Below, piece by piece: positions 1 to 49,739 of a stretch of DNA of 64,000 nucleotides. The translations under genes were made by a program, and so were the position numbers. Each line of letters begins with the position of its first letter. Position 1 is the first letter of the stretch. The notes beneath the pieces are model-generated. The model made no database searches and was not told the origin of the DNA. It was given only the letters and a program-made list of their open reading frames with translations. The stretch comes from Kappaphycus alvarezii. Taxonomy: Eukaryota > Rhodophyta > Florideophyceae > Gigartinales > Solieriaceae. The DNA is taken from assembly GCA_002205965.3 (NCBI GenBank), contig NADL03000499.1, positions 1 through 64,000 of the forward strand, given 5' to 3'.

Positions 1-104
1 GAAAAAGGGCGCCAAATGGCAGAAATCCAAGGAAAAGTGCAGCACCTTCCCGCCCCCGCCTCACTGAAAATATCCGACATGTTAACATCTTCCGAAGTAA
101 TTGC

Positions 105-1658
105 ATGGAGCGTTTCAGATTTAGACAAGCAAGTGTACCGGTTACTCACTCGTTCGAACTTACCGACACTCAACCGATTTACCACAAGCCTAGACGTCAA
201 CCGCCAAAATATGACCAATTTATCTCAGAAAATGTTACAAGTATGCTGAAAAATGATATTATTCGACCAGTTTCATCCCCATGGTCGTTTCCAGTTGTGG
301 TCGCACCAAAGAAGGATGGAAAGCTGCGTTTTTGCGTCGATTACCGACAACTGAACCAGAGAATGATACCCGATCGATTTCCGATTCCGAACATGGAGGA
401 GATCCTCGAGGACCTGAAGGACGGGAGATATTTCACCTCAATTGACCTTTACACTGGCTATTGGCAGATTCCATTGGATGAAAAATGTAAGGAAAAAACA
501 ACCTTTACCAGCAAAGCCGGTACGTTCAGGTTCGAAGTGATGCCTTTTGGTCTCATGAATGCACCAGCTACATTCCAAAGAATGATGAACGAGGTTTTGA
601 AAGGACTTCCATTCGCAAGAGTCTATATCGATGATGTCGTCATATTCTCAGAAACATTGGATCAGCACATCTCGCACGTCAAGACAGTTGTGGAGAGGAT
701 ATCGGAGTATAGCTTGAAAATTAAGTTGAGCAAATGCTTCTTTGCGAAAACTTCTATCCAATTACTCGGTCATATCGTCGACCAAGAGGGAATTAGAGTG
801 GATCCAGAGAAAACGAAAAAAATAAAGTTGGCACCAAGGCCCGCTTCAAAGACGGAGGTCCGAAGCTTCTTAGGACTGGCCTCATATTACAGAAGATTTA
901 TCAAAGATTTCGCCAAGACTGCAGCACCGTTACATGCCAGCACTACGAAGAACGGAAAATTTTACTGGAACAAGGAAATGGAAACTGCATTTCAGGAGCT
1001 TAAAGATAAGCTATGTGTCCCCCCAGTTCTCATGTACCCAGATTTCAAGAGACCATTCGTTGTGGAGACAGATGCCTCAGAACGGTCTTTGGGTGCCGTT
1101 TTGTCCCAAAAAGATGAAAACGGAAGACTACACCCTGTTCAATTCGCAAGCCGAACTCTGAATGACGCGGAAAAGAGATACTCAGTCTGCGAGAAAGAAG
1201 CGCTAGCTGTCGTCTTCGCGCTGAAAAAGTTTCGCGTATACCTTTTATCACTCGAGAAATTTGTCTTGATAACTGATCACCAGGCACTTAAAACAGCATT
1301 CCAAAAGAAGGATGTACATCACCGCTTGGCCCGATGGCTCGACATTTTCGCAGAATATCGGTTTGAAATTGTGTATAGACCCGGACGCAATAATCAGCCT
1401 GCCGATTACCTATCCCGCTTGAGGGACGCACTGATTCCAAATGAAAAAGCTTCGGAGGACATCGTCGGAGTCGCCGAGTTGCAGTTGCCGAACGATAACG
1501 AGTACGAAGCTAATATTCACGGACTGATCAAATTCCTCGATGGACTAGAAATGAGAAAGGTTGATCTTGAACACCGAAATTGGGTACGCAGGAATCAAAA
1601 GGCTTTTACATTGTGGAATGGGAAACTTTCCGGCACACTAAAGCCGGTCCCCGACTAG
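105..1658 (+). pseudogene. A1 pol: reverse transcriptase and RNase H
   Basis: The 517-residue open stretch encodes the gypsy RT followed by RNase H. RT fingers and palm include the CVDYRQLNQR block and the catalytic YIDD box at residues 174-177. RNase H carries TDAS (Asp323), the CEKEALAVV helix (Glu365) and TDHQAL (Asp391), then NNQPADYLSR. The true pol frame starts upstream: A2 shows that A1 lacks one G near position 121, which splits the first residues off into another frame (16-120). A second indel at about 1629 ends the frame early. The product would copy the element RNA in cytoplasmic particles. Confidence 0.92.
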
Positions 1659-1689
1659 TGGCCCCTTTGAAAGAAAGAATGAAGATCTT

Positions 1690-3216
1690 GAGGACTTTCC
1701 ATGATGAGCTAGGGCATTGGGATCTCGAAACAACCAAAAATTCGTAACTGAGAGATTCTGGTGGCCCGGTATCCATAAGGACGTCTATAACTTCGTGAAA
1801 AGCTGCGACAACTGCCAAAAATTCACTCCAATACGGAAGTATAAGACAACTCTAAGTTTTCCAGTTTCCGGTCTCTTTGAAACCTTCTCAATTGACTTCG
1901 CGGGCCCGTTCAAGGAAACTTCTTCCGGAAACAAATATCTCCTTATAGGGGTGGAACATCTTACTGGATGGCCAATAGCAGTTGCAGTCGAGGAGGCAAA
2001 TGCTGAGGTGGTACTGAGATTCATCGAAAAAGAAATAATTGAACCGTTTGGTCTTCCAAAAAGGATCATCTCGGATAACGCCCTTTGTTTTACTGCAACT
2101 TCACTGCTTCGTTTTTTGGAAGAGAAAGGGATTCAGCTGAAGACCGTTCTCGCATACGCTCCTATGTCCAACGGGAAAGCGGAGAGGATGGTTGGAACCA
2201 TCAAACGAGCAATATCGAAAACTATGTTGGAGAATGAAATCCAGTGGGAAGATGCCTTACCAAAAGTGTTATACGGCTACCGTCGAAGAAGAGGAAGAAA
2301 TGGACGCTCACCATTCGAGCTAATGTACGGAAGGGCTCCTAGAATGTTACAGAGAGACATGGAAACAAATATTATCGATGAAGAGAGTAGGGAAGTTGAA
2401 CTACTGGCCACCGAAGGCTGGAGATCACACCGCGCGCTAACACAGACAAGAAATAAGGATGCAGAACCTGCAGTCAGAACCTTTTCAGTTGGCTCTAAAG
2501 TACTTGTAGTACATGGAAAAGCAATGCAGCAGGCTGTGAAGTGGCCGGCCTTCCAAACCAAGTACTCGAACCCTTGCATCGTCACGGAGGAAAGACACCC
2601 GCACTATCAGCTCTGTTCAAGCTCAGGGAAGAGATCAAGGAGGGCCATCCATGCACGTCGTCTGGTCCCTTACCATCAGAGGCCTGAAGAATTCCTTCTC
2701 ACACAGGACTATGCGCAACCACGGGGCATACTCATCTTTAACTATAGAATGATTCCTATGGGAGGAAAAAGGGCCTGGGAATGGATCATCTCGGTTACGC
2801 GGGACTACTACGAACTCCACGTAATCATCCATTTCTACATTAATATATGCCTATGTTTTCGTACGTTGAACGGACCATTGCTACCTGAAGAAGATTTCCG
2901 ACTATTAATAAGAGTTCTATTTTCATTCCAAAACGGAAGGTTCACGGAAGCAGGTCCAGAGTTTGTGGAGGTAATATATCATTACTCTATAGGAAGATAT
3001 GGAATGGTAGCTGCTGGAGACTTGTCGCAAACGTATCTGAATATTATCCGTCCAATTTACGTATTTCTCAAGAACAACCAAGACGTGCGACTGAGAGGTT
3101 ACGCCTTACCCCGGATATGGAATACAGGCTGGTCCCGTATCCTCTATGGGAACCTTACGTTTCTCCGCCACAAATTGGGAACGTTGGAGGCGGCGAGGAT
3201 CCTCCTGAAGCAGTGA
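1690..3216 (+). pseudogene. A1 pol: integrase plus first copy of a C-terminal domain
   Basis: An HHCC zinc-binding region (FHDELGHWD then CDNCQKF) precedes the integrase core. Counting from the open stretch at 1717, the DDE residues are Asp60 (SIDFAGPF), Asp120 (IISDNA) and Glu156 (NGKAERMVG), a classical D,D35E spacing. A GPY/F-like module ends in RRLVPYH (about 2510-2680). There is no chromodomain; instead an unrecognised domain of about 125 residues follows (about 2775-3160). The HHCC part is out of frame with the core by one base in an A-run near 1735, and A2 shares that shift. A C-run at about 3112 is one base short compared with A2 and breaks the frame into the next segment. Confidence 0.9.
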
Positions 3217-3845
3217 TGATGACCAGAGGAGGACCTTCAGGAGACAACAACCCGCCCAGAAGAGGTTCCGGTCGTCCCCCGAGAGGACCTCGTGCAGGTC
3301 CCAGTACGTCAGGAGCTGGTCGCGGCCATTCATCGGGACCGTCCACCACAACTTCATCTCTAGCTCTCCTTCACAACCATGCACAGCATACAGTCGGAAG
3401 AAGAAGATTATCTTTTTGGCTGCGCAATATCTCCGAGGATGCGAACGATGCGCAGGTCATTTCTTATTTCATGATAAGCATCTGTTTATGTTTTAGGGCG
3501 CTACATGGACCGCACTTATCTTACGAAGATTCGTTCTTGATGATGCGCGTCTTCTTTTCTTATCGACATCCATTCCTCCGGCATCTTCCAGAAGAGTTTG
3601 CATATCACATATATTTTTTCACTCTTGGAAGATTCGGAAGAGTCACGGAAGAAGAATGTATTCAACCCCACCTCGATGTGATCAAACCAATATATGAGGC
3701 TATGCTACAAAGTGAGGTACCAGTAATGCGAACCTACTTTTTAGAGCATCATATTGGTAATCAGTTGCATCCGTACCCGTTTGAGAGACCATACATTTTA
3801 TCAATAAGACAGCGAACACTAACGGAAGCAGAAGAAGAGCAGTGA
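3117..3845 (+). pseudogene. A1 pol C-terminus: G/P/S-rich linker plus second copy of the domain
   Basis: This frame continues the polyprotein after a 1 bp shift. It starts with the end of the first domain (PYPLWEPYVSP), runs through a linker rich in Gly, Pro, Ser and Arg (about 3195-3370) and then enters a second domain (about 3396-3805) that clearly resembles the first: ICLCFRALHGP here against ICLCFRTLNGP in copy 1, then an acidic ED, an RVFFS or RVLFS block, GRFGRV against GRYGMV, a PIY motif, and a closing YPFERPY against YPLWEPY. It ends in an acidic tail, TEAEEEQ. I recognise no known family. Confidence 0.85.
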
Positions 3846-4104
3846 CGAGTCGGGACGTTCGTCTTGAGCGAGAGGGCGTGATGTGCGCAAATTCGCACAC
3901 GAAAAAATCTAGATGAGGACCATGATTGTATACAGTATCGGAATTGGGAAGATATTTTTACAGTTTTTGAATTTGCAAGATATTTTTAATTTGGGTGAGT
4001 GTGGCAAATTCATCGGTTGATTTTTTTATTTTAGGACACGCTGTCATAGTAGATGTCAGTACAGTTCCAGGTTGTGGGTGATACTACAAGTAGCTCTGAA
4101 AGGT

Positions 4105-4112
4105 CTATATAA
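4105..4112 (+). promoter_or_regulatory. TATA-like box in the short-LTR-specific U3
   Basis: TATATAAT lies in the part of the LTR specific to the short type, upstream of the shared TATATAA. It is also present in the solo short LTR (near 53738). Function is inferred only. Confidence 0.35.
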
Positions 4113-4282
4113 TGGCCACATCAATTCCCACCCCTGGCCGATGGGTGGCTGGCATGGGTATGGCACCTAGATATTTACCTTGAGGAAATATCTCTAATAG
4201 TCTCTCTGGTTCACACGATTACCGTGAATACATTTTATGGTTATTAGTATGTTTGTTGAGACTTTTGGGGTAGCCAAAAGTC

Positions 4283-4289
4283 TATATAA
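4283..4289 (+). promoter_or_regulatory. TATA box shared by both LTR types
   Basis: TATATAA follows a conserved GGTAGCCAAAAGTC block and is kept in both LTR types (7868 in the A2 5' LTR). It is the best candidate core promoter for the genomic RNA. Confidence 0.55.
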
Positions 4290-4594
4290 GCCGAGTAAAC
4301 TGCTTCCTTTAGTGGAGGTGAAGCAAGTTGGCAGACAACTTCAAGCCAAGTCCCGAGTAGTAGGAAGTTGAGAGTCAACTTCAGACCCAAGAAAACTTTT
4401 TCTTACGCTAGTCGCAGAGCGTCGGTGGTAGACCCTGCCCCTTTTATACTTGCTTGTAGCTTCTCAACTCTCTTCTATATACACTCCCTTTTGTTCGTTC
4501 AACAATACCACGGTAGCACTTTTGTCGCTCGCAACACCTCCTTCTCAGGGTAATTGGTTCTGAGGATCTCTTCCCCGCCGATTTACCCCTATCA

Positions 4595-6482
4595 GTAGTC
4601 TTAAAATGACATCGCAAAAGGTAGAATAGGATACCATTAGATCCAGAATCGCGCCAGGAAAGGGAAAGTGGTTTTCAACAATGAAAATAAACCTGAAGGT
4701 TAACTAAATGCGGCGCAATCGAATTGACAAAAGATCCGGAGGATATACAGATTTCATCATCAGAGGCTCTTCGATATATGCGACATACAAACCCAGCACA
4801 TCCACTAAATGTCAGTACCAGAAGAAGAATGAGGCCTCTTGCACACAAGGATCCGAGAAATAAAACTCTGGTGATTGCAGCGACGAAGAAATTGACGTTT
4901 TTGAAGCCGCGGAGCTTGAACTTGATAGTCTTGACAAAGAGCTTGAGAGGCTCCTGACCATCGTAGTTCTTAGTTCTGAACCATTAGCAGCTAGAATAAA
5001 CCATGTCCCGACACAGCGGTCCACGATTGGTCGACCAGATTTGCGAATTGTAAGGGCGCAGAAACGGAGACGAGAAGCAACTCAAATCTATTCCAATAAT
5101 ATCACCTTCAGTGGGAGTTTCTTTTAGTAAAATATTTCGGAGGTGGTGTAGGTTTGCAAGCAAGCTTATTTGACACACTGTCTTAGTCACTTTTGCATTT
5201 TCTACATAGCACTCACATTCCAGCTTATCTAAACTTTTTTGTGTTACAAATTGCGAGGCCCGGTCAGTAGATGCAATTTGTGGATGAGCTAGTACCAAAT
5301 ATCTAGGTAGGCCCACATACGCTTGGTATAAGTGAACGGCTTGAACCTAAGAAAATCATCCGAATACATCACTGCGCGACGACGGTTACGGTAGAGACAG
5401 CACAATTCAGGACAATCATATAGTTTCCGATAGTGCTGCGGCACCAATTCCAAAGTATGAAAAATCCGGCCTTGTTTGTAGTTCTTATCAACAACCAGTC
5501 CGTAGGAGTGGAGGACACTTTATGGTGCTCATGGTAACTTAAAATGCGTTTGAGCTTGCAAATAATTAAAAAGTAAAGCATTAAGTGAGCCATCCATTAC
5601 AGTTTTGCAACCTTTCTACTCCTCTTCGTCCATATTACATATCTATTATTACAGATAAAATGTATTATGCATTTGGGAACGTATCTCTTGATAAGCAGAC
5701 ATTACCTACCCCTTATTACATATGGATTGCATTATGTATTTGGGAAAGAATCATTTGGCCGAGCGGCAAGCACTTCAACTGTACATTTGATGATGTCCAC
5801 TTTTCGGACTGATTCCATCTCATATTAGCCGCTTCAACCTTATTAAATGTCTCAGTAACTATCCTGCTTGCCGCCTCCACGGTCTCTATCAACTATGCGC
5901 TCATGATTCCTCATTATTTTGCTGTGGAATCGGCCACAGTTAAAGTGTGGCACCAGAATGAATATGTTCTGCGACAAAGACCTGTTTATTCTGAAGATAC
6001 CGTACGCAGTATATTGCATTTCCACGAGTTGTAACGAGCGTTCCATATCATGACATGGGCTGCAGGTCCAGTCATTTTTCGCTACAAACATCAATTTCCA
6101 AAGTGAAATGCATCCGAGAGTTGAAGTGTAACGTTGAGTTGAAAGTTGTTACAATGCTTTATATCAAAATAAACCATGAGGGGCGACTTGTGCCACATTG
6201 GCACGATCACCCTAATTCATCTCGGATCTGCCAAGAATATTCAAAATGGATGGCCATAACCTATTGTTGAAGCCAAAATAGAATTCAGTTGTTTAGATCT
6301 CACTCTGCTCACGAAAATACTAATTAAATTATTTATTGTACGGAATGAACAATCAACTGCGCCCACTACCAGAGGATTATGAAAAGAACAGGGGTTCCTT
6401 TCAACGTACTAATACCTACCCGTAACTGACAACCAACGTTTCGTGGTCAATCTCTCTCGAAAGTATAACTTTTCAGAGAAAT
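4595..6482. other. Region between A1 and A2, unidentified coding relic at its start
   Basis: From 4724 to about 5130 the plus strand holds two open stretches in different frames that read as one hydrophilic protein. The first 48 or so residues begin MTKDPEDIQISSSEAL. After a shift comes an acidic, coiled-coil-like stretch (DEEIDVFEAAELELDSLDKE) ending in a basic segment (RAQKRRRE). I do not recognise it. From 5130 to 6482 I see no convincing gene or repeat. Confidence 0.4.
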
Positions 6483-6631: not shown

Positions 6632-6632
6632 T

Positions 6633-6747
6633 GTAATACAAAAAAATGGTCCTCCCCTCATTTAATACAGGAAATGGTCCTCCCTTCACGTAATACAGGA
6701 AATGGTCCTCCCTTCACGTAAGACAGGAAATGGTCCTCCCTCGTGTA
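6633..6747 (+). repeat. 28 bp minisatellite at the start of the long LTR
   Basis: Four units of a TAATACAGGAAATGGTCCTC-type repeat, each 27-29 bp. The same array is at 14235-14348 in the 3' LTR. The solo LTR at 48365-49723 has only two units, so copy number varies. Position at the U3 start suggests an enhancer-like role; that is inference. Confidence 0.85.
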
Positions 6748-7012
6748 ATCCAGCAACCTACAACGATCCCGCCCCTAACTTCTCCAACCGTCATTTCCAA
6801 ATTTACTTCCATTTTATCTAGATATTTTTATACTGTATTTAACCCTCTGAATCGACCCCGAATCAAGTCCCTTTTCCCTTTTAGCTTACCTCCTCCTCCA
6901 AATTCGCCTTTTTTTGAGAAGAAGGGCGCAAATGCACTATTGCAAAATCCCTTGCAGATTTATTTTACCTATTCCTAATCTATAGAACCTGCCCCGGGAG
7001 CCTATTTAAACC

Positions 7013-7020
7013 CCTTTATT
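7013..7020 (+). promoter_or_regulatory. TATA-like box upstream of the LTR ORF
   Basis: TATTTAAA lies about 100 bp upstream of the ATG at 7119 and is repeated in the 3' LTR. It would let the acidic ORF be transcribed separately from the genomic RNA. Inferred from position and sequence only. Confidence 0.45.
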
Positions 7021-7118
7021 CTAAGTTCCAAATGCCCCCGATCATTTTACTCATCACCCCTCTCCCCCACACACCCAAAGCACCCCACATTGCCTCCTGT
7101 TCCCCAACTTCTATCACA

Positions 7119-7739
7119 ATGAGCAACCTTCGCCCCTCTGTCCCTATTTCCAAAAACCGCCCTTCCCGTTCCATCAATGGCCTTCGTCTCGCCGCCTACG
7201 GGCCAACCGATGCCGACGACTACATCCGGCGGCAAACAAAGAAGCAAATCATCGAGTTCGTGCGCCGCCTCTTCATAGAAGAAGAAGCGAGGGAGGTAAG
7301 TCCGGGAGAGGCTGAGAAGGTCGAGGAGGAGAGCGGGGAGTCCTTCGAGGAATGGTTAGCCCCTGAGCTAGTGTACGAGGATCAGGAAGAGAGGATGAGG
7401 AGGATGAGGAGGATGAGGAGGATGAGGAGGATGAGGAGGATGAGGAGGATGAGGAGGATGAGGATGAGGAAGAAGAGGATGAGGAGGAGAGGAGGAGGAG
7501 GAGGAGAGGAAGATGAGGCAGGGGGCATGGAAAGTGTTGGACCGGTGGGGCCTGGAATAGAGAGTATGGATCAAGTTGTGCCCACGATGGAACCGGATGG
7601 AGATATCTTTAGTAGTCTAGATATCTCCCAGGGGGAAATAGAGAGTTGTGAGCCATTCGCAGATATTTGTGGGGACTGCTTGGACAGCATGGATATTTTA
7701 GAGGAGTTGTTTGGATCTGATTTAGAGAATGGGAAATAA
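7119..7739 (+). CDS. LTR-encoded acidic protein (5' LTR copy)
   Basis: The preferred start is the ATG at 7119 (ATCACAATGAG, a favourable context); an in-frame ATG at 7032 would add 29 residues. The protein has about 206 residues: a basic N-terminus (MSNLRPSVPISKNRPSR), a conserved block (PTDADDYIRRQTKK, then EFVRRLFIEEE), a low-complexity centre and a conserved C-terminus (DILEELFGSDLENGK). In this copy the centre is read in a shifted frame and gives Arg-Met-Arg repeats in place of the Glu/Asp repeats of the 3' copy; a second indel restores the frame. No signal peptide, membrane segment or catalytic motif is visible. Function is unknown. Relatives in five other LTRs keep the terminal blocks. 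Confidence 0.7.
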   Translation: MSNLRPSVPISKNRPSRSINGLRLAAYGPTDADDYIRRQTKKQIIEFVRRLFIEEEAREVSPGEAEKVEEESGESFEEWLAPELVYEDQEERMRRMRRMRRMRRMRRMRRMRRMRMRKKRMRRRGGGGGEEDEAGGMESVGPVGPGIESMDQVVPTMEPDGDIFSSLDISQGEIESCEPFADICGDCLDSMDILEELFGSDLENGK

Positions 7740-7867
7740 GAGGACCAAATTAATTGTTAGTTTCTTAAGTATCTTTTGCTTAGAGTATATTGTCCACACA
7801 AAGTATTTTTATGCATTTCTTAGTATCTTCTGTAGTTTTGTTCGGACTTTAGGGGTAGCCAAAAGTC

Positions 7868-7874
7868 TATATAA
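7868..7874 (+). promoter_or_regulatory. TATA box for genomic RNA in A2 5' LTR
   Basis: TATATAA in the region common to both LTR types, downstream of the LTR ORF and about 300 bp before the LTR end. Confidence 0.55.
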
Positions 7875-8178
7875 GCTGAGTAAACTGCTTCCTCATGGAG
7901 AGGTCAAGCAAGTTGGCAGACAACTTCAAGCCAAGTCCCGAGTAGTAGGAAGTTGAGAGTCAACTTCAGACCCAAGAAAACTTTTTCTTACGCTAGTCGC
8001 AGAGCGTCGTGGTAGACCCTGCCCCTTTTATACTTGCTTGTAGCTTCCAACTCTCTTCTATATACACTCCCTTTTGTTCGTTCAACAATACCACGGCAGC
8101 ACTTTTGTCGCTCGCAACACCTCCTTCTCAGGGTAATTGGTTCTGAGGATCTCTTCCCCCGCCGATTTACCCCTATCA

Positions 8179-8266: not shown

Positions 8267-9173
8267 ATGGATCTCAATGCTGCTCGTATAACGTTCACAG
8301 GGGGCAAGACTGAAGACGTTGAGGAGTTTCTTTACACATATGTCAACGTTGTGATGCGAGAGAAGGGCGATGAAGAGAAGGCCGCAAGTATCTTCGCCTA
8401 TCTTCATGGTGACGCAAAGCACAAATATAAGTCCAAGTTTATCGACGGGTGGTCTCTTAACGGGAATGGGCGTAACTTCGGTGAGGTATGTGAGTGGCTT
8501 GTGAAAGAGTATGCTAAAGGTAGAAACCAGATGAGATGATTCGTACCGCCATAGAGGCCCGGCTCAACTTCGACGATTTGTTTTAAGCTCATTGGTGTAC
8601 TTGTGTGATCTTTATGAAAAGGCTGGGTTCAACGCCCAAGCCAAGTACGGAATGCTGCGTAAGGCGGCTATGGGGGATAAGCGGCTCTCCGATTTCCTCC
8701 TCATCAAGGGCCCTCACACTTTTGATGAACTGAAGGGTACCATAGTAGAATTTGTCAAAAATTCGGAGACGTTTCAGTCACTGAGTGAGGTACCGAGGGA
8801 AACCCGCACATCGATGTCTATCGTACATCCTGAAAAGAATTATCAAAGGCCGGCTACTAGTGCAGCGGCATTAGAATCTGTCAGGAGCGATGTCAAAAAC
8901 TTGGAAGAAAGGTTGGAAACCCGATTCGATAATCGACTTGACATGATAACCTCGCAGTTGGAAAGCCTTACTCTTACCATTAAAAGAAGTCTGGGGCCCC
9001 TAAGGCCGCAGAAGTCTGTTCTTACTGTCACAAGCCTGGACACTTTGCAAACAGGTGTCCTGATAATCCACATAGAAACACTCGTTGTGCAAAGTGCGGT
9101 CGATATGGGCATCATGAAAGTAACTGCTGGTCTAAAGACAACAGAAGAGCAAATTTATCGGAAGCAGGAGTGA
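8267..9173 (+). pseudogene. A2 gag with two CCHC zinc knuckles, frame-shifted
   Basis: Gag packages element RNA. The ATG at 8267 opens a 90-residue stretch (MDLNAARITFTGGKTEDVEE). After a shift the frame resumes at about 8540-8592 and runs to about 9000 with a coiled-coil-like region (SVRSDVKNLEERLETRFDNR). A further shift reaches two perfect CX2CX4HX4C knuckles at 9017-9058 (CSYCHKPGHFANRC) and 9086-9127 (CAKCGRYGHHESNC). Two or three 1 bp indels separate the pieces. The nucleotide sequence is otherwise well preserved, so the breaks may be sequencing errors. A very decayed relative of this gag lies near 34.5-34.9 kb. Confidence 0.88.
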
Positions 9174-9186
9174 GTCAGGACCAGAG

Positions 9187-10191
9187 GTGAAAATCTTACA
9201 AAATAGAAGGGATCAAAGGTTGACGGATGCCGGTAACGTATCCATCGCTGAAGAGATTAGTCAAGTCAATGTGACAAAAAGGGATGGGGAAGGGAACATT
9301 TTATCGAAGAAACCTAGGCTAGAGTATGGAATGCTGGAGCATATCCCAGCACCTGTACCTCCTCGAACCAAGAGGTCTGATCAAGTTGTTCCAGGAGTGG
9401 GAGTCACTCCGGCCAAGAAGACGAAAAAGAGTAAGAAAGTTAAGAGTATCTCTAAGGACGTACTAGAGTATGTGAAGAGGTACAATTTGGTGGCTGAGCT
9501 TGCATCGGCCCCAACTGGGATAACGTTTGGTCAACTTTTGAGGGGCGACGCAGAGGATGCGAGAAAAGAACTCAAAAAAATTATCAGGTCTAATAAGTCC
9601 GCTAAGGGTAAGAAACTGTTTCTTCAATCGGCCTCGACAGCACCAAGACGTCTTAAGCTGGTACCAGTCAAAGTATTGGGTATGAAAACCCAAGCTCTCT
9701 TCGATTCGGGTGCTGTTCCAAACCTCATTTCAGAAACTTTGGTGACAGATCTAGGTCTCGAAATTACTCCAACGACTCGAAAAATAACTGTAGCGGATGG
9801 AACCGTCTCAAAATGCATGGGCACTGTTGACAAGGTTTCCGTGTTCTTTGGGGACTCTAAAGTTGATGTAGACTTTCTTGTCATGCCGGATCTCCCTTTC
9901 GATGCAATCATTGGCTGCCCTACCATGGAAAGACTAGGGACATGCATTGACTTGGGCAACCAAATGGTTTCAGTTAATATTGACGGCAGAACCGTGAAGA
10001 TGCCCCTGGATTTCGACAAAAGCACGCATCCTGAAGATTTAAAAGAAACGGACAGTGAAGATTTCACTTCTAGCTATGACAGCGAAGATTCGGAACCAAC
10101 TAACACTTTCAGAAGTGGAAAAGGGTACCCTCGGGGGTTAATGAACATGGCATGGGACGATTATGATTCCGGGTTTGAAATTCTAGGATAA
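9187..10191 (+). CDS. A2 aspartic protease region
   Basis: This 334-residue open frame starts with a Lys/Arg-rich, probably disordered linker (AKKTKKSKKVKS). It then contains a retropepsin domain: the active-site triad in ALFDSGAVPNLIS, followed by the strand and flap region and the second hallmark FDAIIGCPTMERLG. An acidic segment (DSEDFTSSYDSEDSE) follows. The protease would cleave Gag-Pol. It sits between the zinc knuckles and RT, the usual gypsy order. The frame stops at 10191; a +1 frame carries on through 10192-10428 as an acidic spacer leading into RT. I have not used the upstream non-ATG codons as the start because it is probably made as part of a polyprotein. Confidence 0.88.
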   Translation: MKILQNRRDQRLTDAGNVSIAEEISQVNVTKRDGEGNILSKKPRLEYGMLEHIPAPVPPRTKRSDQVVPGVGVTPAKKTKKSKKVKSISKDVLEYVKRYNLVAELASAPTGITFGQLLRGDAEDARKELKKIIRSNKSAKGKKLFLQSASTAPRRLKLVPVKVLGMKTQALFDSGAVPNLISETLVTDLGLEITPTTRKITVADGTVSKCMGTVDKVSVFFGDSKVDVDFLVMPDLPFDAIIGCPTMERLGTCIDLGNQMVSVNIDGRTVKMPLDFDKSTHPEDLKETDSEDFTSSYDSEDSEPTNTFRSGKGYPRGLMNMAWDDYDSGFEILG

Positions 10192-10428
10192 GTTTGAAAC
10201 CCGATGTGTTTCTTTTTGCGATGATATCGAATCAAAGGACAGAATTCGGAGCATGAAAGAAGATTACCTTTGCAAAGAAAATAAGAATACGGCGAACTCC
10301 ATATATGAAGATGTGAGCACGACGGAAGAGGTCCTTCAAAATATTGAGGTTGAGGATCAAGAAGAAAAAGGGCGCCAAATGGCAGAAATCCAAGGAAAAG
10401 TGCAGCACCTTCCCGCCCCGCCTCACTG

Positions 10429-11783
10429 AAAATATCCGACATGTTAACATCTTCCGAAGTAATTGCATGGAGCGTTTCAGATTTGAGACAAGCAAGTGTA
10501 CCGGTTACTCACTCGTTCGAACTTACCGACACTCAACCGATTTACCACAAGCCTAGACGTCAACCGCCAAAATATGACCAATTTATCTCAGAAAATGTTA
10601 CAAGTATGCTGAAAAATGATATTATTCGACCAGTTTCATCCCCATGGTCGTTTCCAGTTGTGGTCGCACCAAAGAAGGTGGAAAGCTGCGTTTTTGCGTC
10701 GATTACCGACAACTGAACCAGAGAATGATACCCGATCGATTTCCGATTCCGAACATGGAGGAGATCCTCGAGGACCTGAAGGACGGGAGATATTTCACCT
10801 CAATTGACCTTTACACTGGCTATTGGCAGATTCCATTGGATGAAAAATGTAAGGAAAAAACAACCTTTACCAGCAAAGCCGGTACGTTCAGGTTCGAAGT
10901 GATGCCTTTTGGTCTCATGAATGCACCAGCTACATTCCAAAGAATGATGAACGAGGTTTTGAAAGGACTTCCATTCGCAAGAGTCTATATCGATGATGTC
11001 GTCATATTCTCAGAAACATTGGATCAGCACATCTCGCACGCACCTCAATACAGTTGTGGAGAGGATATCGGAGTATAGCTTGAAAATTAAGTTGAGCAAA
11101 TGCTTCTTTGCGAAAACTTCTATCCAATTACTCGGTCATATCGTCGACCAAGAGGGAATTAGAGTGGATCCAGAGAAAACGAAAAAAATAGTTGGCACCA
11201 AGGCCCGCTTCAAAGACGGAGGTCCGAAGCTTCTAGGACTGGCCTCATATTACAGAAGATTTATAAAAGATTTCGCCAAGACTGCAGCACCGTTACATGC
11301 CAGCACTACGAAGAAAGGAAAATTTTACTGGAACAAGGAAATGGAAACTGCATTTCAGGAGCTTAAAGATAAGCTATGTGTCCCCCAGTTCTCATGTACC
11401 CAGATTTCAAGAGACCATTCGTTGTGGAGACAGATGCCTCAGAACGGTCTTTGGGTGCCGTTTTGTCCCAAAAAGATGAAAACGGAAGACTACACCCTGT
11501 TCAATTCGCAAGCCGAACTCTGAATGACGCAGAAAAGAGATACTCAGTCTGCGAGAAAGAAGCGCTAGCTGTCGTCTTCGCGCTGAAAAAGTTTCGCATA
11601 TACCTTTTATCACTCGAGAAATTTGTCTTGATAACTGATCACCAGGCACTTAAAACAGCATTCCAAAAGAAGGATGTACATCACCGCTTGGCCCGATGGC
11701 TCGACATTTTCGCAGAATATCGGTTTGAAATTGTGTATAGACCCGGACGCAATAATCAGCCTGCGATTACCTATCCCGCTTGA
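10429..11783 (+). pseudogene. A2 pol: reverse transcriptase and RNase H, frame-shifted
   Basis: The same RT/RNase H as in A1. The N-terminal join (VSDLRQASVPVTHS) is intact here, where A1 lacks one base. New breaks appear where A1 is intact: a lost base near 10678 (AAGGTGGAAAG against AAGGATGGAAAG), an altered run at 11040, one or more losses near 11190-11235, a lost C near 11383, and one near 11763. YIDD, TDAS, CEKEALAVV and TDHQAL are all present. All catalytic residues therefore survive at the DNA level, but no single open frame spans the domain. Confidence 0.9.
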
Positions 11784-12059
11784 GGGACGCACTGATTCCA
11801 ATGAAAAAGCTTCGGAGGACATCGTCGGAGTCGCCGAGTTGCAGTTGCCGAACGATAACGAGTACGAAGCTAATATTCACGGACTGATCAAATTCCTCGA
11901 TGGACTAGAAATGAGAAAGGTTGATCTTGAACACCGAAATTGGGTACGCAGGAATCAAAAGGCTTTTACATTGTGGAATGGGAAACTTTTCCGGCACACT
12001 AAAGCCGGTCCCCGACTAGTGGCCCCTTTGAAAGAAAGAATGAAGATTGAGGACTTTCC

Positions 12060-14200
12060 ATGATGAGCTAGGGCATTGGGATCTCGAAACAACCAAAAAT
12101 TCGTAACTGAGAGATTCTGGTGGCCCGGTATCCATAAGGACGTCTATAACTTCGTGAAAAGCTGCGACAACTGCCAAAAATTCACTCCAATACGGAAGTA
12201 TAAGACAACTCTAAGTTTTCCAGTTTCCGGTCTCTTTGAAACCTTCTCAATTGACTTCGCGGCCCGTTCAAGGAAACTTCTTCCGGAAACAAATATCTCC
12301 TTATAGGGGTGGAACATCTTACTGGATGGCCAATAGCAGTTGCAATCGAGGAGGCAAATGCTGAGGTGGTACTGAGATTCATCGAAAAAGAAATAATTGA
12401 ACCGTTTGGTCTTCCAAAAAGGATCATCTCGGATAACGCCCTTTGTTTTACTGCAACTTCACTGCTTCGTTTTTGGAAGAGAAAGGGATTCAGCTGAAGA
12501 CCGTTCTCGCATACGCTCCTATGTCCAACGGGAAAGCGGAGAGGATGGTTGGAACCATCAAACGAGCAATATCGAAAACTATGTTGGAGAATGAAATCCA
12601 GTGGGAAGATGCCTTACCAAAAGTGTTATACGGCTACCGTCGAAGAAGAGGAAGAAATGGACGCTCACCATTCGAGCTAATGTACGGAAGGGCTCCTAGA
12701 ATGTTAAGAGAGACATGGAAACAAATATTATCGATGAAGAGAGTAGGGAAGTTGAATACTGGCCACCGAAGGCTGGAGATCACACCGCGCGCTAACACAG
12801 ACAAGAAATAAGGATGCAGAACCTGCAGTCAGAACCTTTTCAGTTGGCTCTAAAGTACTTGTAGTACATGGAAAAGCAATGCAGCAGGCTGTGAAGTGGC
12901 CGGCCTTCCAAACCAAGTACTCGAACCCTTGCATCGTCACGGAGGAAAGACACCCGCACTATCAGCTCTGTTCAAGCTCAGGGAAGAGATCAAGGAGGGC
13001 CATCCATGCACGTCGTCTGGTCCCTTACCATCAGAGGCCTGAAGAATTCCTTCTCACACAGGACTATGCGCAACCACGGGGCATACTCATCTTTAACTAT
13101 AGAATGATTCCTATGGGAGGAAAAAGGGCCTGGGAATGGATCATCTCGGTTACGCGGGACTACTACGAACTCCACGTAATCATCCATTTCTACATTAATA
13201 TATGCCTATGTTTTCGTACGTTGAACGGACCATTGCTACCTCAAGAAGATTTCCGACTATTAATAAGAGTTCTATTTTCATTCCAAAACGGAAGGTTCAC
13301 GGAAGCAGGTCCAGAGTTTGTGGAGGTAATATATCATTACTCTATAGGAAGATATGGAATGGTAGCTGCTGGAGACTTGTCGCAAACGTATCTGAATATT
13401 ATCCGTCCAATTTACGTATTTCTCAAGAACAACCAAGACGTGCGACTGAGAGGTTACGCCTTACCCCCGGATATGGAATACAGGCTGGTCCCGTATCCTC
13501 TATGGGAACCTTACGTTTCTCCGCCACAAATTGGGAACGTTGGAGGCGGCGAGGATCCTCCTGAAGCAGTGATGATGACCAGAGGAGGACCTTCAGGAGA
13601 CAACAACCCGCCCAGAAGAGGTTCCGGTCGTCCCCGAGTGGACCTCGTGCAGGTCCCAGTACGTCAGGAGCTGGTCGCGGCCATTCATCGGGACCGTCCA
13701 CCACAACTTCATCTCTAGCTTTGCTTCACAACCATGCACAGCATACAGTCGGAAGAAGAAGATTATCTTTTTGGCTGCGCAATATCTCCGAGGATGCGAA
13801 CGATGCGCAGGTCATTTCTTATTTCATGATAAGCATCTGTTTATGTTTTAGGGCGCTACATGGACCGCACTTATCTTACGAAGATTCGTTCTTGATGATG
13901 CGCGTCTTCTTTTCTTATCGACATCCATTCCTCCGGCATCTTCCAGAAGAGTTTGCATATCACATATATTTTTTCACTCTTGGAAGATTCGGAAGAGTCA
14001 CGGAAGAAGAATGTATTCAACCCCACCTCGATGTGATCAAACCAATATATGAGGCTATGCTACAAAGTGAGGTACCAGTAATGCGAACCTACTTTTTAGA
14101 GCATCATATTGGTAATCAGTTGCATCCGTACCCGTTTGAGAGACCATACATCTTATCAATAAGACAGCGAACACTAACGGAAGCAGAAGAAGAGCAGTGA
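12060..14200 (+). pseudogene. A2 pol: integrase and tandem C-terminal domains
   Basis: Integrase resembles A1 (SIDFA, IISDNA, NGKAERMVG) but is broken by 1 bp losses near 12261, 12470, 12705 and 12755. From 12879 to about 13630 the frame is open and joins the GPY/F-like module, the first C-terminal domain (about 13133-13525) and the start of the linker, passing the C-run that breaks A1. One base is missing at about 13635, after which 13721-14200 carries the second domain and the acidic end. Read with A1, the two copies show that integrase and both C-terminal domains belong to one polyprotein. Confidence 0.88.
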
Positions 14201-14220
14201 CGACCCGGGACGTTCGCCTT

Positions 14221-14233
14221 GAGAAAGGGGGCG
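14221..14233 (+). other. Polypurine tract of A2
   Basis: GAGAAAGGGGG followed by CG lies directly before the 3' LTR, the expected plus-strand primer position. A1 has the variant GAGCGAGAGGGCG at 3866-3878. Confidence 0.75.
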
Positions 14234-15784
14234 TGTAATACAAAAAATGGTCCTCCCCTCATTTAATACAGGAAATGGTCCTCCCTTCACGTAATACAGG
14301 AAATGGTCCTCCCTTCACGTAAGACAGGAAATGTCCTCCCCTCGTGTAATCCAGCAACCTACAACGATCCCGCCCCTAACTTCTCCAACCGTCATTTCCA
14401 AATTTACTTCCATTTTATCTAGATATTTTTATACTGTATTTAACCCTCTGAATCGACCCCGAATCAAGTCCCTTTTCCCTTTTAGCTTACCTCCTCCTCC
14501 AAATTCGCCTTTTTTTGAGAAGAAGGGCGCAAATGCACTATTGCAAAATCCCTTGCAGATTTATTTTACCTATTCCTAATCTATAGAACCTGCCCCGGGA
14601 GCCTATTTAAACCCCTTTATTCTAAGTTCCAAATGCCCCCGATCATTTTACTCATCACCCCTCTCCCCCACACACCCAAAGCACCCCACATTGCCTCCTG
14701 TTCCCCAACTTCTATCACAATGAGCAACCTTCGCCCCTCTGTCCCTATTTCCAAAAACCGCCCTTCCCGTTCCATCAATGGCCTTCGTCTCGCCGCCTAC
14801 GGGCCAACCGATGCCGACGACTACATCCGGCGGCAAACAAAGAAGCAAATCATCGAGTTCGTGCGCCGCCTCTTCATAGAAGAAGAAGCGAGGGAGGTAA
14901 GTCCGGGAGAGGCTGAGAAGGTCGAGGAGGAGAGCGGGGAGTCCTTCGAGGAATGGTTAGCCCCTGAGCTAGTGTACGAGGATCAGGAAGATGAGGAGGA
15001 GGATGAGGAGGATGAGGAGGATGAGGAGGATGAGGAGGATGAGGAGGATGAGGAGGATGAGGATGAGGAAGAAGAGGATGAGGAGGAGGAGGAGGAGGAG
15101 GAGGATGAGGAAGATGAGGCAACAGGGGGCATGGAAAGTGTTGGACCGGTGGGGCCTGGAATAGAGAGTATGGATCAAGTTGTGCCCACGATGGAACCGG
15201 ATGGAGATATCTTTAGTAGTCTAGATATCTCCCAGGGGAAATAGAGAGTTGTGAGCCATTCGCAGATATTTGTGGGGACTGCTTGGACAGCATGGATATT
15301 TTAGAGGAGTTGTTTGGATCTGATTTAGAGAATGGGAAATAAGAGGACCAAATTAATTGTTAGTTTCTTAAGTATCTTTTGCTTAGAGTATATTGTCCAC
15401 ACAAAGTATTTTTATGCATTTCTTAGTATCTTCTGTAGTTTTGTTCGGACTTTAGGGGTAGCCAAAAGTCTATATAAGCTGAGTAAACTGCTTCCTCATG
15501 GAGAGGTCAAGCAAGTTGGCAGACAACTTCAAGCCAAGTCCCGAGTAGTAGGAAGTTGAGAGTCAACTTCAGACCCAAGAAAACGTTTTCTTACGCTGGT
15601 CGCAGAGCGTCAGTGGTAGACCCTGCCCCTTTTATACTTGCTTGTAGCTTTCTCAACTCTCTTCTATATACACTCCCTTTTGTTCGTTCAACAATACCAC
15701 GGCAGCACTTTTGTCGCTCGCAACACCTCCTTCTCAGGGTAATTGGTTCTGAGGATCTCCTCCCCCGCCGATTTACCCCTATCA
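14234..15784 (+). repeat. 3' LTR of A2, long type
   Basis: 1551 bp, TGTAATACA...CCTATCA, nearly identical to 6632-8178. It ends against CCCTCCTTTG, which is not shared with the left flank. Confidence 0.95.
14720..15244 (+). CDS. LTR-encoded acidic protein (3' LTR copy)
   Basis: The start is the ATG at 14720, same context as in the 5' LTR. Here the central repeat is read in the acidic frame: a run of Glu/Asp (DEE-type units) of about 45 residues, flanked by the conserved PTDADDYIRRQTKK block and the PVGPGIESMDQVVPTMEPDG segment. One G fewer in a G-run at about 15237 gives a premature stop (SQGK); one more base would restore the C-terminal DILEELFGSDLE block ending at 15342, as in the 5' copy. 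Acidic tracts of this kind occur in histone-binding and other nuclear proteins, but no such role can be shown here. Confidence 0.7.
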   Translation: MSNLRPSVPISKNRPSRSINGLRLAAYGPTDADDYIRRQTKKQIIEFVRRLFIEEEAREVSPGEAEKVEEESGESFEEWLAPELVYEDQEDEEEDEEDEEDEEDEEDEEDEEDEDEEEEDEEEEEEEEDEEDEATGGMESVGPVGPGIESMDQVVPTMEPDGDIFSSLDISQGK

Positions 15785-19292: not shown

Positions 19293-20730
19293 TGGCGGGA
19301 ATCTCCAAACGATGATATTCTCAGGGCCAATTATCCCAAGACGAAGATATTTCAAGCGAAGAGAGTGCTACCGAACTATAGTTGTGTAAACGAAAAAAGG
19401 TTAACAATAATTGGGAGGCAAGGGATACAAATTAGTATAGAGAGGACAGGGTCTTCCACCTATGCTCAGGGGTTGAAGATAACGAAATTGTTCTTAGGGC
19501 GGAAGTTCATTTTCAATTTGTAAAAAGGTTGGGTTTGCACTTGAAGGGGTCCTCCAATTTGCTCTCTCTCTCCTATAAGAAGCAGTTTACATAACTTATA
19601 TATACTTTTTGGCTAACGATAAAGTCTCAAATAAACATACCAGACACTATAAATTGCATTAAAGGCAACCATGACGATTAGATAGGCAAATAGTAGATTC
19701 TACAAGGATAATTATCTAGATTTACTCTTCATTAGCTTCTTCCTCGAGACCATAGCTAAGCAATTCCTATAAAATAACAATATCCCTGATGAGGTCCCTA
19801 GAAATGCCATTGAATATCCCAGAATGATAGATAGAATCTTCCAACATATCATGCTCCTCCAAGCCCTCCTCACGACATTAAAACTCCGCCTCATCCCCAT
19901 CAGACAGGCCCAAAATAACAATTGATCCCTCTCTCACTCTCTGTTCTCCACAGAAGCTCCTCCACTGTTGTACACCAGTGGCTCCCAGGGATCCACCTAT
20001 TCCTGTTCACCTTCCGATACTTCCACGAAAGCTTCAGCTTCCTCCTTCTGTACGTTCTCCTCCTCCTCCCCTGCATCCTCGAAGCAGTGACGGCGGACCC
20101 ACTCCGGAACGCGTTCCCGGTCCATCCTTCCATTTTAATCTGCGTAATGGTTTGGAACATTGGCCATCTAGGTCAGAGCGTGGAGGCGACGATGGGATCT
20201 GGATGGCTTGGCGATGGTGACGGAAAGGCGTGGGTTGGTCTTGTCTTTTTGCGGGTAAAAGGAGCGTCATTCGATGAGGTGGTTGATGGAAGGGGTGTTG
20301 CTTTAACGACGTTGATAATGCCCTTTAAGTAGGGTGACGTATTCGAAAATGTTCACGGACTTGAGCGAAATAAAAAATAAGAGATAATATCGTGGCTTTG
20401 AATTTGCTTACATGCAGGATCATAATAAAAAATATGCTCGATAACACATAGGAACCGAATTTGCAGGACGAATTGAATCACGGGTCCAAAATTTTTTTGA
20501 AAAAGGAGGACTAAATCTTCAGATGGAAGATAGAGAATGGAGTCGTACAGTGAATTTATATTCATACGAGAAAAGGAATATGAGTTTTCTTTTTGTTAAA
20601 ATAAAAAGAAGACGATGGTTTTGGAGAAAGAGGGCCCTTCATACCGAGATAATTACAGATCTCGGGATGAAGGGCACAGGAATAGCGGAAAGAAAAAGTT
20701 TCGTAGTGATAGAGGGCAGCACACCCGACA
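19293..20730 (-). repeat. Diverged long-type LTR (copy L5)
   Basis: Read on the minus strand it shows the LTR layout: a diverged 5' part, the acidic-ORF relic, a GTAGCCAAAAAG block followed by TATATAAG, a CTCAAC...AGACCCTGTCC block, a GGTAGCACT block, and a GGATAATTGGCCCTGAG end. Its 1438 bp length matches the related copy at 51923-53363 (1441 bp). Ends are approximate; flanking 5-mers do not match. Confidence 0.75.
19722..20270 (-). pseudogene. LTR-encoded acidic protein, decayed copy (L5)
   Basis: The minus strand contains DRERVPEWVRRHCFEDAGEE, aligned with the EFVRRLFIEEE block of A2, then an acidic stretch (EEAEAFVEVSEGEQE), and a C-terminus ELLSYGLEEEANEE that aligns with EELFGSDLE. At least three stops and one frame change separate the blocks. 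The stop codon is at 19722-19724. Confidence 0.65.
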
Positions 20731-26864: not shown

Positions 26865-27808
26865 ATGGATCAGCTGGAAGTCACCCTAGAGTACCTTACG
26901 CAAATGAAGCTTCAGTTACACCAGAATCTCGAGCATGCCAATAACCAGATTGCCACACAGAAATCAGAGCTTTCTATTGCAGCGCAAAAGGTATCCTCCT
27001 TAGAATCTCAACTCGTAAACGCCCGAAACCAGGTCAGTTCGTCGAGTAATTCCCCAGTGGATAGTCAGGCTGGCCCAAAATAAAACAAGCCAACTATATT
27101 CATTAGGAAAAGATCCATTGGCAGGTGGTGTCTTCAAATGGACAACGGCCTCGGGGGAAATTATGGCAATGGACCCCTACACATAGCACTCAGCTGCTTG
27201 ACTGGCAATGCTCATGAATGGTGGATGGTCCACTTAAAGAGAGCAGAACGGAAAGGAATTAATTACTCTCAGACCATGAAGGATGCTTTGATCCCGCGTT
27301 TTGAAACAATGAACAAGGAGAAGATTGCTGGAGACAACCTCTTACGCTGGAAACAAGTCAAAGACTTTCCTATCTTCAACGAATACTTCAACAAAATTAT
27401 ACTCAATATCCCCGATACTGCAGTTAAAGACCAGATAAATCGTTACTCTCGCGGTTTAAAGCCCTATATCTGGAAGGCATTCTGCACCAAAGAATACGTC
27501 AACCTCTCCGACCTAATGAGAGATGCTGAGCGTGTGGAGTCGGCCTATCGGCGTTCTGGACCCGGTAACCTACCAAAGTCTTCTGGAGAAAAGAATGAAA
27601 ACGGAAGCTCTTTTGGTGGAACCAACAGTCCAGTACCAATGGAAACTGAGAACGTAGAAGTGATACCGGGGCTGAAAAAAAACACCCCGACTTACAGAAG
27701 CTTGACGAAGAAGAATGTGAAAGATTTATTTGCGAAGGTCTCTGTCTCAGGTGCAGACAGAAAAGACACATGGCCAAGAACTGCCCAAAAGTCAGGAGGA
27801 ACTGATTG
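26865..27808 (+). pseudogene. Chromovirus gag
   Basis: The ATG at 26865 opens a coiled-coil N-terminus (MDQLEVTLEYLTQMKLQL) that stops at 27083. The same frame resumes and carries the gag core at 27138 (LTGNAHEWWM, a hallmark L.g.A..WW; later PRFETMNKEKIAGDNLLRW). A shift near 27700 leads to a perfect CX2CX4HX4C knuckle at 27743-27784 (CLRCRQKRHMAKNC). One stop and one frameshift break it. Confidence 0.8.
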
Positions 27809-27989
27809 AAGGCCCCCAGTCAGTTCCAGTCATTGAAAAACTATTAGATACCCTTGTACCAGACAAAAAAACTCGAGATTTATCATTGAATCAAACGAAA
27901 AGGTCCATCGTGTTTACCATCAGATCGAATGCAACGTTCAGTGAAACATTCTCCCCTGCATTCGAGAGAAATCACGAGGCCCTTCTCAT

Positions 27990-28433
27990 TGCCAAGGGTA
28001 CAATTGCTGGTGGACCAGCAAAACATCTTCATAGACCCTGGTGGTGAGAACAACTTATTGAGTGAATCATTTTGCAAAAAAATCAAATAAAGACCCGAGA
28101 TTCCAGAGAGCTTGCTGAAAGGCCACCGGTGCGGACCAGATACTTCAAGAATTTTTAAATGCTGCCAGTGTACATATTACCGGCTATACTGAACCTCTTT
28201 ACTTTGCGGTAAGCCCATTGAAGCGTTATGATGCAGTTATTGGGAAAAAATGGTGCGACTCGCAAAGGGTAAAAATCTATTGCCTTAATAATGAGGTGAA
28301 AATCGATCATAAGGGAAATTCATTCACATTTATTGCTGATGATGTCGGAGTGATTCCTTTTTTATCTTTCAAATCCATAGTTACTGATTTTCATGAGAAA
28401 AAGAGTTATTTGCAGTTTTACTTAGACGTTTAA
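27990..28433 (+). pseudogene. Chromovirus protease region, decayed
   Basis: Near 28028-28070 the plus strand reads IFIDPGGENNLLSESF, matching the retropepsin active-site block with DPG in place of DSG or DTG. Further on (28203-28433) the frame reads YDAVIGKKWCDSQ, matching the YDaIiG second hallmark. Several stops lie between the blocks. Confidence 0.6.
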
Positions 28434-28621
28434 ATTCTAGTGAACCAAGAGCACCAGTATACCCTCGCAACATACAGAAGAGTTAGGAAACATTTGGTGA
28501 TATGCTTCTAGCGAACCTCCCAAGAGGTTTGCCACCGAGAATGAAACAGGGCTTTGAAATAGAAATAAAGAAAGGAGCATAACCACAGCAGAATGATCTC
28601 TGTATACTTTCTGACAAAGAA

Positions 28622-29368
28622 ATGACAGAACTTCTAAAAAAGTTGGGCGAACTACTACAAGCTGAGTTTAAAGGACCTAGTAAGAGCCCCTGGGGAGCTT
28701 CTTTTCTATTCTTGAGCAAGAAGGATGATAGTCTACGGATGTGTGTGGATTACAGGGCCTTAAACCGGCTTACTGTAAAAAACAGCTATCCCTTACCAAG
28801 AATTGACGACATTTTCGACCAGCTTAAAGGAGCAATGTTCTTCAGCAAAATTGATCTTATATCTGGTTATCACCAGATTAGACTACACGAAGATTCAATT
28901 CCATTTACCGCCTTCAGAACAAGATACAGTCACTTTAAATTTCTTGTTCTGTCGTTTGGACTCACTAATGCCCCAGCAACTTTCATGAACCTAATGAATG
29001 ATATTATCAAGGATCAGCTCGACTTATTTGTGATCGTCAATCTGGATGATGTTCTCATCTACAGTAAGACGTGGAAGCATCACTTGGATCATATTAGAAC
29101 TGTACTCAAAATCCTCAGAAAAAAAACGTTGTTTGGCAAATTATCTAAATATCTTTTTGGAGTTACACAAGTGGAGTACGTGGGACGCATCATTTCTCAC
29201 AGTGGTATTTTTGTTGATCCAAATAACATAAGTGCAGTCATCGAATGGCCGATACCAAAGAATAAGCAACAAATAAAGCCTTTTCTTGGTTTTGTCAATT
29301 ATAACCGGAGAATCATAAAATGCTGTTCAATTCTTGTAAAAACTCTGACAGAATTGACGAAAAAGTGA
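28622..29368 (+). pseudogene. Chromovirus reverse transcriptase
   Basis: A 248-residue ATG frame covers the RT domain: MCVDYRALNRLTVKNSYPLP, KIDLISGYHQIRL, FLVLSFGLTNAPATF and IVNLDDVLIYS. The catalytic box is NLDD where active gypsy RTs have Y/FLDD, so the first position is substituted, though both aspartates remain. The connection (FLGFVNYNRRIIK) is present. The frame stops at 29366-29368 before RNase H. Confidence 0.88.
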
Positions 29369-29924: not shown

Positions 29925-29999
29925 TTCACGAACACTGAGTAAGTGAAGTTGGCAGAAAATTATGGTAGGGATGAGAACCTCAGAACCCATTATCAAGAT

Positions 30000-49723: not shown

Positions 49724-49739
49724 CACACCAGCGGATCAA

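Follow-up and report, generated by a model that had tools for sequence, protein, structure and literature searches.

Here we describe a small protein gene that lies wholly inside the unique 3′ region (U3) of a long terminal repeat (LTR), a kind of sequence that is normally non-coding. It was found in the first 64,000 nucleotides of contig NADL03000499.1 of the Kappaphycus alvarezii assembly GCA_002205965.3 (hereafter the window). The open reading frame (ORF) runs from ATG to TAA at 7119–7739 on the forward strand, encodes 206 amino acids, and belongs to a retrotransposon that we call A2. Comparison with the copies in other LTRs of the window establishes a formerly selected protein gene in the class formed by A2, L3, and L5, and makes one likely in the class formed by L6, L7, and L8. 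From the layout of the protein and its surroundings, its most likely role is that of a U3-encoded autoregulatory transactivator, which we propose with somewhat less than even confidence.

The carrier element and the copies of the gene

The ORF is LTR-borne: the sequence around it is a 1.55-kb direct repeat, and retrotransposon coding sequence stands between the two repeat copies. The A2 LTRs have TG...CA termini (TGTAATACA ... CCTATCA, at 6632–8178 and 14234–15784). Judged by its domain matches, the carrier is a Ty3/gypsy-type LTR retrotransposon, because an aspartic protease (PR) is encoded between the A2 LTRs at 9187–10191 and the sibling element A1, whose body is 99% identical to that of A2, matches reverse transcriptase (RT)-RNaseH at 105–1658 followed by integrase (IN) at 1717–3216. 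Taken together, the A2 and A1 parts show the Ty3/gypsy order PR-RT-RNaseH-IN. A2 also contains an RT fragment at 10993–11523, with a match below the cut-off, and no Pfam gag match was found in the one candidate A2 ORF scanned (8592–9173). The element is plausibly fungal in look. Compared by eye, the A2 flanks (6632, 15784) do not match as a target-site duplication, despite the 98.7% identity of the LTRs; later recombination between elements or an assembly join are possible explanations.

A preliminary description of this DNA had placed the same gene in both A2 LTRs and in five older LTRs, between a TATA-like box of its own and the TATA box of the element, and all of these copies were located. 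The TATTTAAA box is present in A2 and L6, with a variant in L3, L5, L7, and L8, about 80–120 bp before the start in the joint alignment. The start codon is ATG in A2, L3, L5, and L7, whereas L6 and L8 have a codon other than ATG at the corresponding position; the stop codon is at about the same place in most gene-bearing LTRs. The last 16 residues are identical between L3 and A2, in keeping with the C-terminal identity reported earlier.

The protein consists of a basic N-block, a repeat tract of variable length, and a C-block. Only the A2 5′ LTR, one of the seven copies, has an unbroken ATG-to-stop frame, and its tract is read RMRRMRR. The Glu/Asp tract first attributed to the protein is found in the copy of the A2 3′ LTR, where a frameshift falls within the C-block, and not in the ORF at 7119–7739. 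The whole N-acidic-C protein is therefore seen in neither A2 copy. Several frame breaks each were found in L5, L6, L7, and L8. Some of the breaks in young copies may be assembly errors, since indels between A1 and A2 are as frequent as substitutions. The A1 body (1–3880) differs from A2 (10364–14235) by 17 indel and 17 substitution events, with several of the indels in homopolymers, and these equal counts suggest either long-read assembly error or unusual indel mutation.

Homology among copies was examined by tblastn, with nine N- or C-block queries against the whole window and 30 shuffles per query as a control. Every match at E<0.1 falls in gene-bearing LTRs. The A2 N-block matches L7 (2.5e-4) and L6 (8.9e-4), and the L6 N-block matches L8 (8e-7) and A2 (1.8e-4). 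For the C-block, A2 matches L6 (6e-6) and L6 matches L8 (4e-9). The best E value per shuffled query was 0.0004–0.056, so that links at 0.008 or weaker are insecure, namely those of the L7 C-block with L3 (0.008–0.009), the L8 C-block with L7 (0.06), and the L6 N-block with L5 (0.08).

Coding constraint and past selection

The N-block carries a clear trace of past purifying selection. Its ratio of nonsynonymous to synonymous divergence (pN/pS) is 0.37 for A2–L3 and 0.44 for A2–L5, and when the order of alignment columns was shuffled (2000 trials, 16 pair-and-block tests), values as low were reached in 0/2000 shuffles for either pair. These two tests are non-independent, as A2 is common to both. 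Read out of frame, the same pairs give 0.8–1.6 in the N-block, and the upstream flank gives 0.62–1.03; non-coding flanks can thus also fall below 1, the lowest (0.62–0.64) being the upstream flank of A2–L3 and L3–L5. Differences in the N-block concentrate at third codon positions, with 41/83 against 44/166 at positions 1 and 2 for A2–L3 (Fisher p 6e-4) and 48/82 against 56/164 for A2–L5 (p 4e-4); Fisher p values here and below are uncorrected for the number of tests. The N- and C-blocks of the A2 5′ LTR contain no stops in the gene's frame and 1–5 in each of the other five.

For the C-block, the in-frame ratio is 0.47 for A2–L3 and 0.53 for A2–L5. Shuffles as low numbered 118 of 2000 for A2–L3, 127 for A2–L5, 31 for L6–L8, and 84 for L6–L7. 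The A2–L6 N-block and the A2–L8 C-block point in the opposite direction, with 1895 and 1825 of 2000 shuffles as low. The N-block ratios of the distant pairs depend on the alignment and carry little weight: A2–L6 and A2–L8 give 1.07 and 0.87 in pairwise nucleotide alignment (amino acid identity 16% and 19%), and 0.54 and 0.67 in the joint alignment. The preliminary proposal that both conserved ends record selection for a protein is thus upheld for the N-block, where the sequence comparison argues strongly for it in two pairs sharing A2, and is marginal for the C-block.

These results bear on two simpler explanations. A purine-rich simple repeat could by chance open a long frame, with the remainder a coincidence, and the tract is indeed a simple repeat of 9-bp period with more than one open frame. 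Such an origin is scarcely credible, as it is already contradicted by the conserved, frame-constrained blocks outside the tract, by the absence of any equally low N-block shuffle in two pairs, and by the specific tblastn matches among copies. Alternatively, an ancestral LTR could have picked up part of a host gene, which would now be decaying as a functionless passenger. Six of the seven copies are broken and in two family LTRs the U3 lacks the gene, as would be expected of a passenger, but selection is seen between lineages that already carried the gene at the same place and so acted after capture. In addition, the TATA-like box, and the ATG context where an ATG survives, are kept in copies only ~65% identical. 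We consider a passenger improbable. The preliminary description had named a lack of open frames in most copies as evidence against a selected gene; this is literally what the six broken copies show, although broken frames do not undo selection between lineages, because decay after insertion is usual for such copies.

Protein features and the proposed function

The N-block has a charge of +7 over 52 residues, and the composition of the C-block is acidic together with leucine and aromatic residues. An AlphaFold2 model of low confidence places helices at residues 31–56 in the N-block and a short one at 191–198 in the C-block. We applied an activation-domain rule derived on human proteins (PMC10550315; eq. 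1 and the looser eq. 2) to all 39-residue tiles that are open in any of the six frames across the window. Eq. 1 passes 19 of 24,949 tiles in six clusters, five of which are in the gene: the N-tail and C-block of the A2 5′ LTR, the N-tail of the A2 3′ LTR (nearly the same sequence), and the N-tail and C-block of L3. As three come from A2 LTRs and two from L3, these five clusters represent two distinct gene copies only. With eq. 2, 44 tiles pass; they form eight clusters, of which seven belong to the gene, the additions being the C-blocks of the A2 3′ LTR (in a shifted frame) and L6. The C-block is thereby predicted to be an acidic activation domain of the VP16 class. The sole eq. 1 cluster outside the gene, at 4864–4980, is an acidic, leucine-rich open stretch immediately downstream of the A1 3′ LTR.

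At its 5′ end, ahead of the gene, U3 carries 28-bp tandem repeats, which also occur as 4.4 copies at 14234–14354 in the A2 3′ LTR and 2.4 copies at 49658–49725 in L3. These repeats are enhancer-like and may be candidate response elements. The gene-less U3 has a weaker 28-bp repeat of its own. A splice donor (AG/GTAAGT) at the N-block end in A2 and L5 was considered and dropped, being absent from L3, L6, and L8 as read from the alignment, and a scan for bacterial promoters and terminators was set aside as not applicable to a Ty3/gypsy element.

In the mechanism we propose, the lineage would have carried a protein gene wholly in U3 under its own TATA-like promoter, ~0.9 kb upstream of the main TATA box. 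The protein would comprise a basic, probably helical N-block, an acidic linker not constrained in length, and a predicted C-terminal acidic activation domain. The N-block may bind U3, perhaps at the 28-bp tandem repeats, and the bound protein would raise transcription of both the element RNA and its own gene, in a self-activating loop like that of foamy-virus Tas. We see a U3-directed activator as the simplest interpretation because the gene, its promoter, a candidate target, and the main promoter all sit in one exchangeable unit. Activator and target would move as one, as U3 appears exchangeable as a unit with its breakpoint at the U3/R border (R, the repeat region of the LTR), and gene-less U3s would coexist with gene-bearing ones.

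The protein could instead be a genuine U3-encoded accessory protein with another job, such as anti-silencing or, by way of its charged tracts, an action on chromatin or RNA, in which case the likeness to an activation domain would be a by-product of an acidic, leucine-containing tail. Many nuclear proteins have acidic tracts; in Pfam, the Glu/Asp copy scores best, though never above the cut-off, against families that include DNA_pol_phi, Nop14, and Paf1 (matches that look compositional); and an Argonaute gene in the window makes a silencing pathway plausible. This role, which we regard as possible if doubtful, leaves unexplained both the presence of a hydrophobic-acidic C-terminus among the conserved parts and the position of the gene beside enhancer-like repeats.

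Several results speak against a transactivator and temper our confidence in it. The AlphaFold2 model has a mean predicted local distance difference test score (pLDDT) of 57.9 and a predicted template modeling score (pTM) of 0.24, and its sole confidently predicted helix is the out-of-frame Arg/Met tract, which makes the helix evidence weak. The activation-domain rule is compositional and was made on human proteins. Selection on the C-block is marginal: for A2–L3, one out-of-frame reading gives 0.52 compared with 0.47 in frame, and across both blocks 4 of the 16 pair-and-block tests fall below 5% while 12 do not. The 28-bp tandem repeats were not found in L5, L6, L7, or L8. Since at least two LTRs of the family (A1 and L4) are without the gene, it is not needed in cis. 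No recognized DNA-binding domain was found in the protein in Pfam and PDB scans; Pfam gave no match above the cut-off, and PDB gave none that was convincing, with chance-level matches only. Finally, in a database of ~5.8 billion proteins searched through shared 5-residue words, the 8000 candidates sharing the most words with the whole ORF were scored and none reached E≤0.01.

Narrower searches of the same database gave a similar picture. For residues 1–60, no candidate shared three words, and alignment of 11 pieces to 4519 candidates gave none at E≤0.1. In IMG/VR, eight pattern matches with a pol piece and nine with the ORF were obtained, none confirmed as a relative. We weighed DUF2293, a family that ends in a similar TDYD-type motif, as an assignment for the N-block and rejected it. 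A 45-residue L6 piece (52686–52820, reverse strand) matched it at E 0.15 with 12.6 bits against a cut-off of 25, and an unrelated family ranked higher for this piece; the 66-residue L6 piece and the N pieces of A2, L3, L5, L7, and L8 did not match it.

Probable exchange of U3 and mosaic structure of the gene

Comparison of A1 and A2 indicates that the gene sits in an exchangeable part of the LTR. The two bodies differ by 17 substitutions in 3.9 kb and their R-U5 regions (U5, the unique 5′ region) are almost identical, whereas the A1 U3 is short and gene-less, with similarity to the A2 U3 only around the main TATA box. Mismatches between A2 and A1 run to 7905, ~30 bp past the common TATA box (7868–7874), and near-identity follows from there to the LTR end. 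This places the switch where R should begin. Just before 7905, A2 is L3-like and A1 is L4-like. A second switch between A1 and A2 lies at the LTR start or a few tens of bases before it; the A1 5′ LTR is outside the window. The switch at the U3/R border is the trace that exchange of U3 during reverse transcription would leave, and with two unrelated U3s changing over at this inferred border, the gene appears to sit in an exchangeable U3. In the R-U5 tree (midpoint root only), built to date the loss or gain of the gene, none of the six inner branches is strongly supported; one fork, at 90/87, joins both A2 LTRs with A1, L3, L4, and L5. In the gene-less U3 (3879–4240 and 53504–53860), a separate TATA-like TCTATATAATGG leads into a short 23-codon ORF (MATSIPTPGRW...), which hardly differs between A1 and L4.

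The gene itself is mosaic in structure, as judged from identity in 100-bp windows. Between A2 and L3, identity is 77–82% in the U3 repeats that precede the gene, 52–70% from 6781 into the N-block and over most of its length, 74% in the last N-block window, and 76–93% from the tract end onward. Between A2 and L5, it is 71–80% for windows starting at 6781–6981, 53–64% at 7081–7331, and 69–84% at 7431–7631. Third positions of the A2–L5 N-block (48/82) exceed both the preceding non-coding stretch (82/291; p 8e-7) and the C-block third positions (19/65; p 5e-4), and for A2–L3 the N-block third positions (41/83) exceed those of the C-block (10/67; p 1e-5). Because protein selection alone does not raise silent divergence, the A2 5′ leader and N-block probably have a separate history; one border would fall after the gene's TATA-like box but ahead of the ATG, the other within or close to the repeat tract. 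We infer from this pattern an exchange of domains at the tract, although a locally high silent rate in the A2 leader and N-block may be an alternative.

Extending the transactivator proposal, the protein could represent a new transactivator family in which the gene and its U3 target form a cassette swapped at the U3/R border, with an N-terminal specificity domain shuffled via the tract. We put this forward only tentatively. If the cassette exists, related elements could compete with, complement, or ignore each other's activator.

Table 1 Positions of the gene, its parts, and the related LTRs in the window. Coordinates of L3, L5, L6, L7, and L8 are approximate; LTR names are those of this analysis and differ from L3–L7 of the preliminary description.
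Feature	Position	Strand	Remarks
A2 5′ LTR	6632–8178	+	1547 bp; ends TGTAATACA ... CCCCTATCA; 98.7% identity to 14234–15784
28-bp tandem repeats, U3 5′ end	6644–6741	+	3.5 copies; putative enhancer
TATA-like box upstream of gene	7003–7010	+	TATTTAAA; putative promoter element
U3-encoded ORF	7119–7739	+	206 amino acids
N-block	7119–7391	+	Basic; PTDxxDYxRR...FVRRxF helix
Repeat tract	7392–7520	+	Length variable; here Arg/Met, probable ancestral reading Glu/Asp
C-block	7521–7736	+	Contains ILEELFGSDLE; predicted acidic activation domain 7596–7712
TATA box of the element's genomic RNA	7868–7874	+	Putative; common to the gene-less U3 class
Inferred U3/R border	7905–7906		Last A2–A1 mismatch before near-identical R-U5
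A2 3′ LTR	14234–15784	+	Gene copy with Glu/Asp tract in frame, C-block frameshifted
A1 3′ LTR	3879–4594	+	Sibling element; same R-U5, unrelated gene-less U3
L3 LTR	48364–49726	−	N piece 49184–49312, last C piece 48807–48923; one frameshift and one stop
L4 LTR	53504–54226	+	Second gene-less-U3 LTR; 91% to A1 LTR
L5 LTR	62653–63782	−	Gene decayed; protein-level homology, frame readings
L6 LTR	51920–53328	−	Gene decayed; N 52686–52820, C 52360–52512
L7 LTR	50060–51800	+	Gene ends around ~0.5–0.6 kb without counterpart elsewhere in the window
L8 LTR	19295–20707	−	Gene decayed; tblastn, frame readings

Other features of the window

L7 (forward) and L6 (reverse) lie tail to tail (50060–53328), and their aligned parts end ~0.1 kb apart. 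A second type of LTR element is present at 27138–30955, with retrotransposon gag, RT, and weak integrase matches. The Argonaute (PAZ-Piwi) gene is at 56845–58770 and adjoins a CAP-domain gene at 58898–59821 on the opposite strand. It scores best against animal Argonautes, to which we give little weight, since the fungal entries compared are partly fragments.

Comparison with known systems

The U3-encoded accessory gene is a known kind of gene. We know of none in such a carrier, and searches of an open-access library turned up no paper describing a gene within an LTR of a fungus. The term "LTR ORF" in PMC12037069 refers to ORFs of LTR elements rather than to an LTR-internal gene, and the matching phrase in PMC1560396 refers to a host gene that lies within an element.

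If the proposed function is correct, a retrotransposon carries its own transcriptional regulator within its promoter, and a single cycle of reverse transcription could suffice for an element to gain this regulator, lose it, or exchange it with another element. How retrotransposons control and partition their expression could then be tested by comparing siblings with and without the gene, as in the case of A2 and A1.

Two further systems resemble single aspects of A2. In crapaud, a fungal LTR element of Podospora anserina, U3 makes up the 5′ half of the LTR, ahead of the TATA box; it varies among subfamilies while the rest is conserved, and exchange during reverse transcription has been suggested (PMC10787394). 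The A2 and A1 elements likewise have a variable U3 on an otherwise conserved body. The crapaud LTRs are shorter, at 339–443 bp, and the two ORFs described are gag and RT-RNaseH-IN-chromodomain, with no U3 gene mentioned in the cited part of that paper (PMC10787394). Retrosat2 of rice, a long-LTR element, has an extra ORF of unknown origin, ORF0 (PMC3485330). In contrast to the gene described here, ORF0 is upstream of the gag-pol ORF, and the cited main text does not word it as being within or inside the LTR.

In mouse mammary tumour virus (MMTV), most of the sag gene is in U3, the LTR of ~1.3 kb is unusually long because of sag, and a promoter inside U3 is among those described (PMC4667437, PMC3026287). 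The likeness to MMTV first drawn for the A2 gene holds for location, as the gene lies in U3 and in both LTRs (with the U3/R border placed from sequence), and fails for the likely function. Sag is a superantigen presented by mammalian major histocompatibility complex (MHC) class II, whereas the A2 protein has acidic tracts, a predicted activation domain, and no sequence relative in general searches.

The functional comparison is closer with foamy-virus Tas (Bel1), a small regulatory protein (209 amino acids in feline foamy virus) expressed from an internal promoter, with a DNA-binding domain, an acidic activation domain, poor sequence conservation, and positive feedback (PMC3798896). Its response elements are in the internal promoter and probably in U3, and it most likely drives the LTR afterwards (PMC3798896). 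The A2 protein is similarly small, an acidic activation domain is predicted in it, and the TATA-like box ahead of its gene may mark an internal promoter. The two are likened by features and not by homology, and in A2 the whole gene and its presumed promoter are inside U3. A selected gypsy gene confined to U3 would be a parallel to sag and tas outside the vertebrate retroviruses.
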